From positions 1-64,000 of the forward strand of contig NZ_JAQNCY010000006.1 of assembly GCF_028368855.1 (NCBI RefSeq): a stretch of DNA of 64,000 nucleotides, read 5' to 3'. Origin of the DNA: Leisingera sp. SS27 (GTDB lineage: Bacteria > Pseudomonadota > Alphaproteobacteria > Rhodobacterales > Rhodobacteraceae). A program made the position numbers and the translations under genes. How positions within the stretch are numbered: position 1 is the first letter of the stretch; each line of letters begins with the position of its first letter. Shown one piece after another: positions 42,191 through 47,429 of this stretch. The notes under the pieces were generated by a model. That model saw only the letters and a list, made by a program, of their open reading frames with translations. It had not been told where the DNA came from and did not search any database.

Positions 42191-42234
42191 TCTAAAACAC
42201 GCTTTTGAGCGATCCTAGAAAATTTTTAAGGATC
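42191..42234. repeat. Imperfect direct repeat of the gyrB 3' flank (left copy)
   Basis: This stretch matches 47386-47429 at about 37 of 44 positions, same orientation. It begins TCTAAAACACGC and abuts the right end of the IS. Both copies contain a small hairpin (CGCT-TTTG-AGCG here, CGCC-TTTG-GGCG at gyrB) whose differing bases co-vary, so pairing is kept. On the minus strand a TGTTTTAGA tail follows. Confidence 0.75.
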
Positions 42235-42289
42235 ACCCATAAAGCAACGCCCCGCCAATTGACTTCATAAGGGAATTTTTCGGGTACGC

Positions 42290-42349
42290 GCCCATAACAT
42301 TGTGCGGCACTTGCGTATAGTTTTGCTCTACTTGCCCATAAGTTTGCGC
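42290..42349. repeat. Three iteron-like repeats
   Basis: GCCCATAACATTGTGC (42290), GCGTATAGTTTTGC (42313) and GCCCATAAGTTTGCGC (42334) recur every 21-23 bp, and the first two units end in ACTT. The two-turn period suggests side-by-side binding of one protein: a promoter array or a relic of a replication origin. The surrounding 42235-42521 has no gene that I can support. Confidence 0.5.
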
Positions 42350-42521
42350 GATCAGAGCGATTACCTCCCTAAGGAGTGGTGTAGACTTCGCAGAAGCAAC
42401 TAGGAATCAATTTTACTCCACATATGGAGCACCAGTTGTGGCATGGCACAACCCCAAATTTTAACCAGTAATCTCTGCTGCAGCATCTATCATCGGGCTC
42501 GTCCCAGAAACACCCTGAATA

Positions 42522-42824
42522 CTAAGAAAGCCTCGTGTTTCTGTTCGCAAGAGTCTCACTCAGAATTTCCAAAGAGCCGTCAGCTACCAATTCAGCAACA
42601 AGATCTGCGACTCGCGCTTGCGCCCTGCCTACGGAATCCGCAGCTTCGTCGACTTCATCCGCGTACTGGTCAGAATTACCTGGGTTTTGGCGGCGCGAAC
42701 GCGACAGGCCCATGGAAGCAACAGCAAATGCTTCGCGGGCCTCGGCATAGTCCTTGGCTGCTGCGATCACAGCTTGTATCTGCTCAAACTGCGTTTTTCT
42801 GTAGCTAACGGTATTGGCACTCAT
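42522..42824 (-). CDS. Hypothetical helical protein of the accessory segment
   Basis: This is a 100-residue, mostly helical, acidic protein (MSANTVSYRKTQFEQIQ start; AREAFAVASMGLSRSRRQNPG in the middle). AGGAG precedes the ATG. It shows no signal peptide, membrane segment or motif that I recognise. It is divergent from the XRE regulator gene across a very AT-rich gap and is the only leftward gene between the IS and the quorum-sensing pair. Confidence 0.6.
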   Translation of the reverse strand: MSANTVSYRKTQFEQIQAVIAAAKDYAEAREAFAVASMGLSRSRRQNPGNSDQYADEVDEAADSVGRAQARVADLVAELVADGSLEILSETLANRNTRLS

Positions 42825-43037
42825 TCAAAGAACACTCCTGGAAATTTCTGGGCAGGCCGGGTCTGTCGCGGTGCCCACCCCTTCTAACCGGCACTGCTCC
42901 AGCGAAACGGCATGATAGATGTTAAATTCTATGAACTCTACCTATAAGATTTTGTTTGTAGATATACCCCTCTACTACAATCAAGATCACGTTGCTAAAG
43001 ACAGAAATATAATTCTAATTGCTAGTGAGGTAGTTCT

Positions 43038-43397
43038 ATGTATGATGCAGGCATGACTGGACAAGATGTAAATTCGCGCCCCGCGAACGATGTAAAGGCT
43101 GAACGTTGGAGGCAGCGCCTGCGCCAGGCGCTGGACATCCGCGGCCTTGACTATGGTGAGGTCTCTGAAACTGCAGGCAACAACGCCGAATACGTCAGTA
43201 AAGTGTTGAACGGGCGCTTCAATCCCACTGTGGTACGTATCATGCGGATTTGCGAAGCGGCGAATATCGACATGGCGTATCTCTTTTCTGAAGAAACGGA
43301 TTCAGTTGATCGCAGTGTTCTAAGCAAGGCGACGGAACTTACCGAGGACGACGCCAAGCTAGTCAGCCGGCTTATCAACAGCGCCCGCTCGCGCTAG
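43038..43397 (+). CDS. XRE-family helix-turn-helix regulator
   Basis: This 119-residue protein has a Cro/C1-type HTH at about residues 25-80: ALDIRGLDYGEVSETAGNNAEYVSKVLNGRFNPTVVRIMRICEAANID. The N-terminal about 20 and C-terminal about 35 residues are not recognisable. GAGG lies before the ATG. It sits 200 bp upstream of luxR in an AT-rich setting unlike the rest of the window, which suggests that it came with the same transferred segment. The target is unknown. Confidence 0.82.
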   Translation: MYDAGMTGQDVNSRPANDVKAERWRQRLRQALDIRGLDYGEVSETAGNNAEYVSKVLNGRFNPTVVRIMRICEAANIDMAYLFSEETDSVDRSVLSKATELTEDDAKLVSRLINSARSR

Positions 43398-43545
43398 CTC
43401 TATCCTTTCAATGATTTTTTTAAACAGGTGGGTTCCCTGACTTGGCCATTCCCGATTTGCGGCAGCAACTGAATGCAAGAGCGTTTCAAGGGTGGATGCG
43501 GTAATTTTGTCTCTTTGCACTTCCCTCTCCGGCCTGATGTAAATT

Positions 43546-45190: not shown

Positions 45191-46408
45191 TCAAAGCGAT
45201 GGATCGATGCTCCTTGCCGGATAGCCACCCTTCTTCTTTAGCCATGCCGCCCAAACGGCAAACGCCATTGCCAATCCCGATGTAGCCAGCATCAACATAA
45301 GCAGTGTTTGGCCTCCGTTTGTCAGTGGCACCAGGTTGCCCGTCAATGACGTCAAAACGGCACCACCAGCAACGATGAGAGCGCCGCTCAGTCCGGCAGC
45401 GCTTCCGGCGAGATCAGGTCGAACCGACATGGCACCGGCATTGCATCCGGGCATTGTAATCCCATTCCCTAAACCAACGAAGAGGGTGCTCGCAAAGAAA
45501 AACTCCGCTGACCTGATACCCGATGCGAGCAGCAGCAAACCTCCCAAAAGACCAGTGCAAGCCACAACCCGGCCCGCAATCATGATGGTTGTCGGTTCGA
45601 AGTGTTGCCCAACGCGACCGGCCAGGAAACCGCCAATTAAAAAGCCAACAGTAATGGTCCCGATGTAGAGCCCAAGTTCGGCGGTTGTGACATTGAAAGT
45701 GGACTGCGCAACGAGGGGTGCGCCCGTCAGAAAGATGTAGAATGCGCCGACGGAAAGCGTGCCGCAGAGTGCGTAGGCCCAGAAAAGGGGCTCACGGATG
45801 AGCGCCGTCGTGTCAGGCACAGGAGTGCTGGTATCTGTTGCCCTTTGAGGCCTCGTCTCTCCGAGGTCGAACCAGCAAAGCAGCAGCAATCCGAAGCCCG
45901 CTGCAGCGTAGAAGCCAAAGACGGAGCGCCACCCAAAGAAGGTGTCCAGCACCCCTCCCAGCATGGGGCCGATCATCGGGGCGATTGCCATCGCCATTCC
46001 GATATAGCCGATCAGGCTCACGGCCTCCCGCTCCGTTCTCATGTCCCGAACTATCGCGAGAGAAAGCGCATACCCGCCGATGATGCCGCCTTGGAGCATT
46101 CGACAGAACAGAAATGCCTCGATGTTCGAAGCAAAGGTGCAACCCACAGAGGCAAATGCGAAAACAAGCAAAGCCCCCAGAAGCACCCTCCGCCTGCCGG
46201 TCCGGTCTGACAAGGGACCGATGATGAGCTGGATGATCGCTGTTAAGGCCAGGTACCCAGAAACAGCCCAGCTCACAGTGCTGTAGTCAGTTTTAAGATC
46301 GACAGCGATATTGGCCAGCGAGGGTAGGAACATGTTGAGCGACATCGGCGAAAACCCCGTCAACAGGATCAATGTTATCAAATGCGGAGGTGTTCTCGTG
46401 CGGTTCAT
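45191..46408 (-). CDS. Bcr/CflA-type MFS drug-resistance transporter
   Basis: This 405-residue, 12-helix major facilitator has the family motif GPLSDRTGRRRVLLGALLVF in the loop between helices 2 and 3 and the drug-proton antiporter motif IAPMIGPMLGGVLDTFFGWRSVF. It exports toxic compounds or metabolites by proton antiport. It is convergent with luxI. Upstream lie a short ORF with a strong ribosome site and a terminator hairpin, the layout of an attenuation-controlled gene; the start codon itself has a poor ribosome site. Confidence 0.92.
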   Translation of the reverse strand: MNRTRTPPHLITLILLTGFSPMSLNMFLPSLANIAVDLKTDYSTVSWAVSGYLALTAIIQLIIGPLSDRTGRRRVLLGALLVFAFASVGCTFASNIEAFLFCRMLQGGIIGGYALSLAIVRDMRTEREAVSLIGYIGMAMAIAPMIGPMLGGVLDTFFGWRSVFGFYAAAGFGLLLLCWFDLGETRPQRATDTSTPVPDTTALIREPLFWAYALCGTLSVGAFYIFLTGAPLVAQSTFNVTTAELGLYIGTITVGFLIGGFLAGRVGQHFEPTTIMIAGRVVACTGLLGGLLLLASGIRSAEFFFASTLFVGLGNGITMPGCNAGAMSVRPDLAGSAAGLSGALIVAGGAVLTSLTGNLVPLTNGGQTLLMLMLATSGLAMAFAVWAAWLKKKGGYPARSIDPSL

Positions 46409-46432
46409 CTTGGCGATCTGATCTTTAGAAAC

Positions 46433-46459
46433 AAAAAAGCCCCCGAGAATGTCGGGGGC
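46433..46459 (-). terminator. Terminator/attenuator hairpin in front of the MFS gene
   Basis: On the minus strand GCCCCCGA pairs with TCGGGGGC around CATTC and is followed by TTTTTTG. It ends 24 bp before the MFS start codon and begins 30 bp after the leader ORF stop. Confidence 0.85.
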
Positions 46460-46489
46460 GCATGGAAACGGATATGGATACGGAAAACC

Positions 46490-46540
46490 CTATCGGACCA
46501 TGCACCTCCTGCTTACTACTACGGCGAAATTGAAGGTCAT
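46490..46540 (-). CDS. Leader peptide ORF upstream of the MFS transporter
   Basis: The 16-codon ORF reads MTFNFAVVVSRRCMVR and has AAGGAG seven bases before its ATG, a much better site than the MFS gene's own. A second site, AGGAGG, lies near its end. It precedes the terminator hairpin, so stalling on it could decide readthrough. Its reality rests on layout; conservation is unknown. Confidence 0.5.
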   Translation of the reverse strand: MTFNFAVVVSRRCMVR

Positions 46541-47385
46541 GGATTCACTCCTTTGAAAGCGAGCGTAGTCAGCTTGATCAGCGGTGACAACACATAAAGC
46601 CGCCGTTCGTTCAAGCCGCAGCATCCAGTAATTGGGGCTCGTCGTAGTCATGCGGCAGCGCGGCGATCCGTGGTGAGCCGCCCCTTCTTCGGTTGTGTTG
46701 CCGGAACCTTCCGTCCCTCTCGCCGCCACGTGCGCTCGACACGTCCGTAACTGACAGCCCCCTTCTCGTAACAGCGCCGGCACTCCCCCATAGCCTACCA
46801 AAACCCCGTGCAAGCATACGAAACCATGACTTGGAAAAGCGCAGCATAGGGTCAATAATCAATCTGTCCGGAAATCGGGACGAACTCCACCCCGGCTGGC
46901 TACGTCACACGGCAGAGTTTGCAAAAGGCGCTTCCTGCGCGAAGCGGACGCTGACCAATACCCGGGTTGCGGCTGCAGCGGACGGTAGCAGCGTCTCGCT
47001 CAGAAGCCTTCAGGCAGCCGGGCCTTGAACGCTTGCATTGCGTCGATGCTTCCCTGCTGCACCTGCGAGGGATGCTTGGCGACAGAGTACCGTTAGCGCC
47101 TCTAAGAAAGCAGCAAACAACCATGCGGAGGGGAATGTTCTATCTCTGCCGCACGAGGCTTCCTGGAGGCCCTTTAGGGCCTGTTTGCGCTTGAAGCCTT
47201 CCTGAGCCCACAGTTCACCGCGCTCATGGAGACTATAGCCACCAGAACGGCGATCATGAAAGATCCAGCAGAACAAGAAACCCTGCGATCAACCCTGACA
47301 AGAGGATTTCGCAGTTCTCAGTATCTGCCTGACCCCTAGCGTGTGTGAGAACCAAAACTATGGGCAATTTGCGTAAAAGTATGAT
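46541..47385. other. Gene-poor stretch between the MFS leader and gyrB
   Basis: Several short frames exist on both strands, but none has a good ribosome site, a recognisable family or a consistent neighbour relation. The base composition is mixed, and it looks like decayed DNA. A hairpin GGCCC-TTTA-GGGCC lies near 47169-47182. No RNA gene was recognised. Confidence 0.5.
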
Positions 47386-47429
47386 TCTAAAACACGCCTT
47401 TGGGCGAACCTACAAAGTTTTTAGAAATC
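47386..47429. repeat. Imperfect direct repeat at the gyrB 3' end (right copy), including the gyrB terminator
   Basis: This is the partner of 42191-42234. On the minus strand the CGCC-CAAA-GGCG stem (47395-47406) and TGTTTTAGAA directly follow the gyrB stop, so it is the probable gyrB terminator. Confidence 0.75.

Follow-up and report, generated by a model that had tools for sequence, protein, structure and literature searches.

A very probable Tn7-like transposon remnant with quorum-sensing cargo at the 3' end of gyrB in Leisingera sp. SS27

The window analysed here is a stretch of 64,000 nucleotides from Leisingera sp. SS27 (contig NZ_JAQNCY010000006.1, positions 1 to 64,000). Next to the 3' end of gyrB it contains a 5.2-kb segment, at 42191-47429, which is bounded by two imperfect 44-bp direct repeats and encodes a LuxR-LuxI quorum-sensing pair, an XRE-type regulator and an exporter. 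We compared this locus with a genus set of 21 genomes (own genome, G000, included) and a family set of 394 genomes, which also includes it. The 5.2-kb segment is an insertion at the gyrB 3' end, and the region is very probably what is left of a Tn7-like transposon homing to this site. The features on which this reading is built are the following, G numbers denoting the genomes compared:

42226-47414, no strand: Tn7-like element remnant of 5189 bp, A end towards gyrB and B end distal.
47350-47414, minus strand: A end (gyrB-proximal) located by profile scan, with terminus TGTAGGTTCGCCC at 47414 reading leftwards.
47371-47386 and 47350-47365, minus strand: A-end TnsB-site-like repeats, at offsets 28 and 49 as in G010, G014 and G018.
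42226-42349, plus strand: B end (distal), with a degenerate terminus TTAAGGATCACCC at 42226-42238, aligned with G018, G010 and G005.
42290, 42313 and 42334, plus strand: B-end TnsB-site-like repeats, at offsets 64, 87 and 108 as in G010 and G014.
42235, plus strand: weak B-end TnsB-site-like repeat, assigned by position.
47415-47419, plus strand: target-duplication-like AAGTT, from the sequence, separating the element from the stop codon of gyrB.
42221-42225, plus strand: target-duplication-like AATTT, from the sequence, identical to AAGTT at four of five positions.
47421-49838, minus strand: gyrB, the target gene, with an intact open reading frame and the order towards recF found in 20 relatives.

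In a direct comparison, the two repeat copies (42191-42234 and 47386-47429) were identical at 36 of 44 positions; the original prediction, made by a model from the letters alone, had recognised the repeats correctly but counted about 37 matches. The 12-base core TCTAAAACACGC, with at most one mismatch, occurred twice in the window against 0.14 expected occurrences. When positions 42150-42260 were searched against the own genome, three DNA matches were returned, namely the query itself, 47386-47423 and a match on contig C12 that corresponds to the end of an insertion sequence (IS) at the start of the query. Inspection of the sequence shows the hairpins of the two copies, CGCT/AGCG and CGCC/GGCG, to be one compensated pair apart, in agreement with the co-varying bases described earlier. 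The right copy had been taken for the gyrB stop and terminator; it does extend into the stop codon (47421-47423), but a terminator scan called no terminator-like structure there. The G+C content was 53.9% in the element, 63.2% at 30000-41189 and 61.5% at 47421-64000, and Pfam identified luxR, luxI, the XRE regulator and the exporter, which confirms the AT-rich interval with these four genes. No integrase or recombinase family was found among the seven window reading frames scanned with Pfam, and the earlier remark that no integrase is present thus holds for these frames.

The gene order from gyrB to recF and beyond was retained in all 20 genus relatives, with small gyrB-recF gaps in G005, G008, G009 and G020, and the sequence after gyrB was variable among them. 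Comparison of this downstream sequence, which the original prediction had proposed as a check, gave both a filled and an empty site. In G014, 26.5 kb are inserted exactly after gyrB, at a point where the sequence of G004 is continuous (positions 155-1682 and 28197-42646 of G014 match 1-1528 and 1528-15999 of G004). The empty site of G004 has the sequence TTCTAA-AACCTC-CCTTG, and the filled site of G014 has TTCTAA-AACCTC-TGTAGGATCGCCC next to gyrB and GCGCGATCCTACA-ACCTC-CCTTG at its far border. The G014 element starts with TGT, ends with ACA and, with respect to G004, is flanked by an exact 5-bp duplication, ACCTC. In the parts of the literature available to us, TGT...ACA ends with a 5-bp duplication are the Tn7-like arrangement (PMC6360697; for the duplication also PMC11406308). 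Similarly, G010 contains 49.6 kb at this place, as compared with about 0.17 kb in G002 and G003; in the latter two (L053 and L051) this short interval includes an apparent A-end remnant of another subtype and resembles the scar of a lost element. Border sequence of the window type was present in nine of the 21 genus genomes, own included; on a tree of the conserved upstream stretch (the gyrB-recF region), six of the nine grouped as one clade and the other three, G005, G010 and G014, stood singly. The nearest relatives of these three lack the window end type, G020, G002, G003 and G011 bearing other end subtypes. Rather than following the tree through all relatives, the border type is therefore patchy, and this distribution and the empty site both uphold the predicted insertion at the end of gyrB.

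Behind each terminus of the elements in relatives, a 16-bp motif near GCCCATAGTTTTGCGC forms an array that points inwards from both ends, at offsets 28 and 49 at the A end and 9, 64, 87 and 108 at the B end, with an extra weak site at offset 50 in G014. From their sequence, these arrays are predicted TnsB sites, spaced differently at the two ends. The A-end geometry at gyrB was also found in G005, G007, G012 and G013, which were outside the training set, and on contig C5 of G018 (G018:C5), and the B-end geometry in G018:C5 and partly in G005. A profile of these end sites, trained on ends of G010, G014 and G018 only, was run over the 64-kb window; 17 sites had been found at first, and 16 were used in the later profile for relatives, which excluded the weak G014 site. 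The window's five best places were 42334, 42313 and 42290 on one strand and 47350 and 47371 on the other, with scores from 22.5 down to 13.7, the sixth match being the reverse reading of 42334. Since their offsets (64, 87 and 108 from 42226; 28 and 49 from 47414) are the same as in the relatives, the limits of the element were set at 42226 and 47414. The A terminus, TGTAGG, starts six bases after the gyrB stop. In G007, a second copy of the A-end-adjacent sequence (G007:C1:3114416-3114673, L059) is 460 kb distant from gyrB; it lacks the end-site pattern, and an IS5-like copy is situated about 1 kb from it.

Beyond the B end, the distal border of the segment consists of two features:

42191-42219, plus strand: last 29 bp of the A end of an apparent second, older element, which is the left repeat of the original prediction; the junction is complete in G018:C5 and G010.
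41191-42189, minus strand: IS5-like insertion sequence with two overlapping transposase frames (Pfam DDE_Tnp_1 and DDE_Tnp_1_5).

We take IS5 to be the appropriate name for the element at 41191-42189. It has inverted ends GGCSTTGTTGCACAAATCG and is flanked by GGACC/GTCTA without a target duplication; it probably marks a site of rearrangement. In G018:C5 and G010 the far junctions are complete and consist of a B end, a few target bases and another A end. Judged by these junctions, the second, older element would be stacked beyond the first and truncated to 29 bp by the IS5-like insertion, which also created the left boundary at 42191. The 44-bp direct repeat accordingly consists of two same-side (A) ends, one from each of two stacked elements, and of the few target bases adjoining each end, and is not a pair of copies of the gyrB 3' end as first supposed. 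A further pair of A-type sites was found in G010 close to the outer island limit (50755 and 50776).

The transposition genes were found in relatives. G018 carries a full tnsA-tnsB-tnsC-tniQ set 15-21 kb from gyrB, with profile matches to TniQ (5.8e-8) and TniB (3.6e-16), a TnsB resembling that of Tn6677 (7.6e-19) and a TnsC resembling VchTnsC (1.9e-8). The second element of G010 contains TnsA-like, TnsB-like (Mu-transpos_C, 1.7e-8), TnsC-like (TniB, 1.8e-13) and TniQ (1.2e-8) frames, tnsB and tnsC being apparently interrupted. Close TniQ relatives were detected in two of the 21 genus genomes and four of the 394 family genomes; the G341 copy is a remnant that contains stops. Each of these six genomes has gyrB on the contig that bears tniQ, at a distance of 2.6 to about 40 kb, and TGTAGG 5 bp beyond the gyrB stop. 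By tblastn all four tns genes were matched in G236, G117 and G401, and only tnsA and tniQ in G341. A scan of named genomes detected only the two Leisingera loci, and a TniQ search of plasmids matched five of 72,556 records, all below 60% identity.

Elements at the gyrB 3' end of other genomes, for which the original prediction had suggested a search, are indicated by their terminus. Sixteen of the 21 genus genomes have TGTAGG at a spacing of five or six bases beyond the gyrB stop, G007 being counted from the sequence alignment. In the family set, 23 of 394 genomes, own included, showed CCTACA on the opposite strand at a distance of 4-7 bases from the gyrB stop, with a spacing of five in 18, six in five, and four or seven in none. 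The exact gyrB end signature was present in 198 of the 394 genomes, the 196 without it not being assessable by the pattern; this pattern requires Asp-Phe before the stop, and G236 and G401, with TGTAGG at 5 bp, consequently fall outside the 23. The chance expectation is about 0.2 (198 x 4 positions / 4096), and the pattern read backwards, as a control, occurred in none of the rows listed. Several end subtypes were visible among the genus and family genomes. Because no close TniQ match was found in 14 of the 16 genus genomes with a TGTAGG end, most copies appear to be remnants or non-autonomous elements, provided that no diverged TniQ proteins escaped detection.

The insertion point, the end structure, the 5-bp duplication, the linkage of tns genes to gyrB and the stacked ends were all observed in the comparison of relatives, and the window copy is at best a non-autonomous or decayed Tn7-like member. 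Several results weigh against interpreting the region as a Tn7-like remnant. The B terminus in the window is degenerate, with TTA in place of TGT, so that TGT...ACA is found at one end only, and the flanking 5-mers AATTT/AAGTT agree at four of five positions. The seed motif of the profile was picked by eye after the sequences had been seen, and the weakest border site (13.66) barely exceeds the best background match (12.97, at 4954). The Pfam scan found no tns genes among the reading frames of 42226-47414, the TniQ query had no match in the own genome, and the TnsB query yielded there only a distant homologue, at G000:C12:311619-312482. The flank that relatives conserve on the distal side was not detected in the window, and because of this and of the destruction of the distal junction by the IS, no direct empty-site comparison is available for the own genome. 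The profile scan found no B end at the outer boundary of either the G018 or the G010 island. TnsA is weakly supported (E values of 0.009 and 4e-4; Pfam 0.003 for the G010 copy), the G018 TnsA having no Pfam match, and the TnsA structure prediction was discarded at a pLDDT (predicted local distance difference test) of 35. Besides the full genes there are two short, separate TniQ fragments: the first is in the outer part of the G010 island, the second on G018 C30, unlinked to gyrB. TGTAGG is missing at the gyrB site in five of the 21 genus genomes (G001, G004, G006, G008 and G016), and several of the 23 family cases (L200, L202, L203, L209 and L211) showed no clear repeat array by eye. Finally, the luxI relatives are mostly distant from gyrB, eight of ten lying on another contig or at least 290 kb away.

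The distant TnsB homologue of the own genome (L160; 27%, in an 802-amino-acid frame) perhaps belongs to a further element of the Mu or Tn7 type; 11 of the 21 genus genomes, G010 and G018 counted, have distant TnsB homologues.

Among the alternatives, the one that survives best, though we consider it improbable, is that the lux segment reached gyrB by homologous recombination or an IS-driven rearrangement and that the flanking ends are there by chance. It would suit the IS5-like element without target duplication at the left border, the dispersed repeats at 46675-46999, the location of luxRI elsewhere in other genomes and the fairly sharp limits of the 2.7-kb lux unit described below, at 42480-42511 and about 45190. 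However, the lux segment is placed between matched A and B ends in opposite orientation, and in G018 the lux genes are also inside the gyrB island, if contigs C4 and C5 are neighbours, though inverted and about 40 kb off.

Slightly less probable still is the original proposal of attL/attR-like borders, that is, an island inserted at the end of gyrB by a tyrosine or serine recombinase, its attachment sites being the 44-bp repeats. Direct border repeats, insertion at a gene end, the inverted repeat that surrounds a short centre in the B/A junctions and the tyrosine-recombinase-like frames in the G014 and G010 islands (named from sequence recall) all fit such an island. Nevertheless, no recombinase family was found among the window frames scanned and none was seen to be common to the islands compared, what filled and empty sites have in common is a 5-bp duplication, and the B/A-type junctions are accounted for by stacking. 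The borders have instead the form of inverted Tn7-like ends, with the exact duplication in a relative, and the spaced repeat arrays at both ends together with tnsA-B-C-tniQ in the islands point to Tn7-like transposition. The A-core-B arrangement of G018:C5 had suggested that a circle integrated in the Campbell manner or that paralogous gyrB-downstream regions recombined, and a tyrosine-recombinase core (an inverted repeat with a 6-bp centre) was also considered; all three were dropped in view of the empty site, the duplication and the tns genes. The possibility that the repeats are an origin or iterons was weighed as well and not retained.

There is hardly any chance that the repeat is an ordinary gyrB terminator or a vertically inherited conserved intergenic element, as the hairpin with its compensated pair and the A-end sequence in the entire clade of six genomes might suggest, since it has only two copies in the own genome, unlike a hairpin common after many genes, no terminator was called, the same ends occur in G005, G010 and G014 but this end type is absent from the closest relatives of these three, and the empty site of G004 contradicts it.

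The following genes lie in the Tn7-like remnant, those for LuxR, LuxI, the XRE regulator and the exporter being its cargo:

42522-42824, minus strand: small protein, divergent from the XRE gene, within the 2.7-kb unit common to G016 and G017.
43038-43397, plus strand: XRE-type regulator (Pfam HTH_3, 1.7e-5), which adjoins luxRI in the relatives' lux loci compared.
43598-44233, plus strand: LuxR-family regulator (Pfam Autoind_bind, 3.2e-16; GerE, 3.4e-5).
44295-44960, plus strand: LuxI-family acyl-homoserine-lactone synthase (Pfam Autoind_synth, 8.5e-8).
45191-46408, minus strand: major facilitator superfamily exporter (Pfam MFS_1, 3.6e-48).

The protein encoded at 42522-42824 matched no Pfam family, and its single weak NCBIfam match (E 0.014) was taken as chance. 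Together with luxR, luxI and the XRE gene it forms a unit of 2.7 kb that is about 90% identical to G016:C16 and G017:C25 and whose limits are 31 bp apart on the left and 5 bp apart on the right; this unit may have entered the element in a separate, later event. A luxI relative of at least 71% identity was present in 11 of the 21 genus genomes. Of the ten besides the own genome, the two not among the eight given above are G017, with its copy on a 3-kb contig, and G018, with its copy inside the gyrB island. The G018 lux genes (C5:50.3-52.2 kb) have on one side the outer element's A end (C5:10.8-11.3 kb) and on the other the distal flank, a sequence that starts again at C5:69.0 kb and in G016 closely follows gyrB; the lux genes are inverted with respect to the window and about 40 kb from the A end, and this placement assumes that contigs C4 and C5 are neighbours. 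In the window, three dispersed repeats (46675-46760, 46772-46889 and 46889-46999) recur in many places in the genus genomes, the query 46640-47420 giving matches in 19 of 21, and alignment assigned the third to an intergenic repeat of about 125 bp.

When eight proteins of other islands were tested, one from G018 matched HNH effector models, an ATPase of G017 partly matched Ppl, a protein from the second G010 element was a type I restriction enzyme, and five of the eight were unmatched. The G014 island (C11, about 111-120 kb; L037 and L121) encodes two very large proteins with caspase-like starts, named by eye, the second with a repeat-rich C-terminus; the pair is possibly a defence system. In G018:C5 (L054), a ParD-like antitoxin gene and an NTP_transf_8 gene (8725-9081 and 9245-10300) are close to each other and to the B end, and relatives of one or the other lie near the B ends of G010 and G014.

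With Tn7 and Tn7-like elements that use a TnsD-type selector, the gyrB family shares the TGT...ACA ends, the 5-bp duplication, TnsB-site-like repeat arrays spaced differently at the two ends, tnsA-tnsB-tnsC with tniQ/tnsD, a fixed orientation beside a conserved gene and some defence-type cargo. It differs in its attachment site, gyrB, in an end 5-6 bp after the stop, in a duplication that begins at the stop or one base later, in the stacking of elements and in that no close tniQ was found in most end-bearing genomes. The selector sites given in the portions of the sources available are glmS, tRNA, parE, yhiN and comM (PMC11406308) and SRP-RNA (signal recognition particle RNA), IMPDH and yciA (PMC6360697). 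A further likeness there is the I-F3 CRISPR-associated transposon (CAST) Tn7017, whose parE-targeting TniQ guides insertion to a place beside the gene of a type II topoisomerase subunit (PMC11406308). At the G018 tns locus, in contrast to this CAST, no CRISPR-Cas genes were noticed among the frames, at which no search was aimed. We take parE and gyrB to be paralogues. As far as the literature searched extends, no description of gyrB as a Tn7-like attachment site was found, and supplementary tables of Tn7 surveys may hold one; none was met in the available text of PMC12452197, PMC8649781, PMC10293859, PMC11406308, PMC4337385 or PMC6360697. Within these sources, what is new is gyrB as a landing site, the Tn7-like kind of element and the parE site being already known. 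LuxR-LuxI pairs are usual in Leisingera, the conserved luxIR pair adjoining genes for crotonyl-CoA reductase, acetyltransferase, helicase and oxidoreductase according to the available part of PMC4337385; the window pair, in contrast, is transposon cargo beside gyrB.

In the mechanism that we propose, a TniQ/TnsD protein of this subfamily would recognise the end of the gyrB coding sequence, TnsC would relay target recognition, and TnsA/TnsB would insert the element in one orientation, with the A end 5-6 bp after the stop codon. Since the bases after the stop would be duplicated, gyrB would remain intact and the site would be rebuilt, open to further insertions. The newest element would then adjoin gyrB with older ones pushed outward, the order in the stack being the order of age. 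The window element would have moved by this Tn7-like route, its tns genes having been lost or supplied in trans.

More broadly, we consider it likely that a Tn7-like family across many Rhodobacteraceae genera has in the 3' end of gyrB a homing site that renews itself and has gone unrecognised, at which elements stack by age and most lose their tns genes, leaving cargo for quorum sensing, defence and metabolism beside gyrB. If so, an essential and near-universal gene would be added to the Tn7-like landing sites, a TniQ/TnsD subfamily would acquire a new and testable target, and marine roseobacters might gain a safe-harbour insertion site. It would also place cell-to-cell signalling genes among Tn7-like cargo and explain the strong variation of the sequence after gyrB among genomes, in which the stacked ends may preserve a readable order of arrival.

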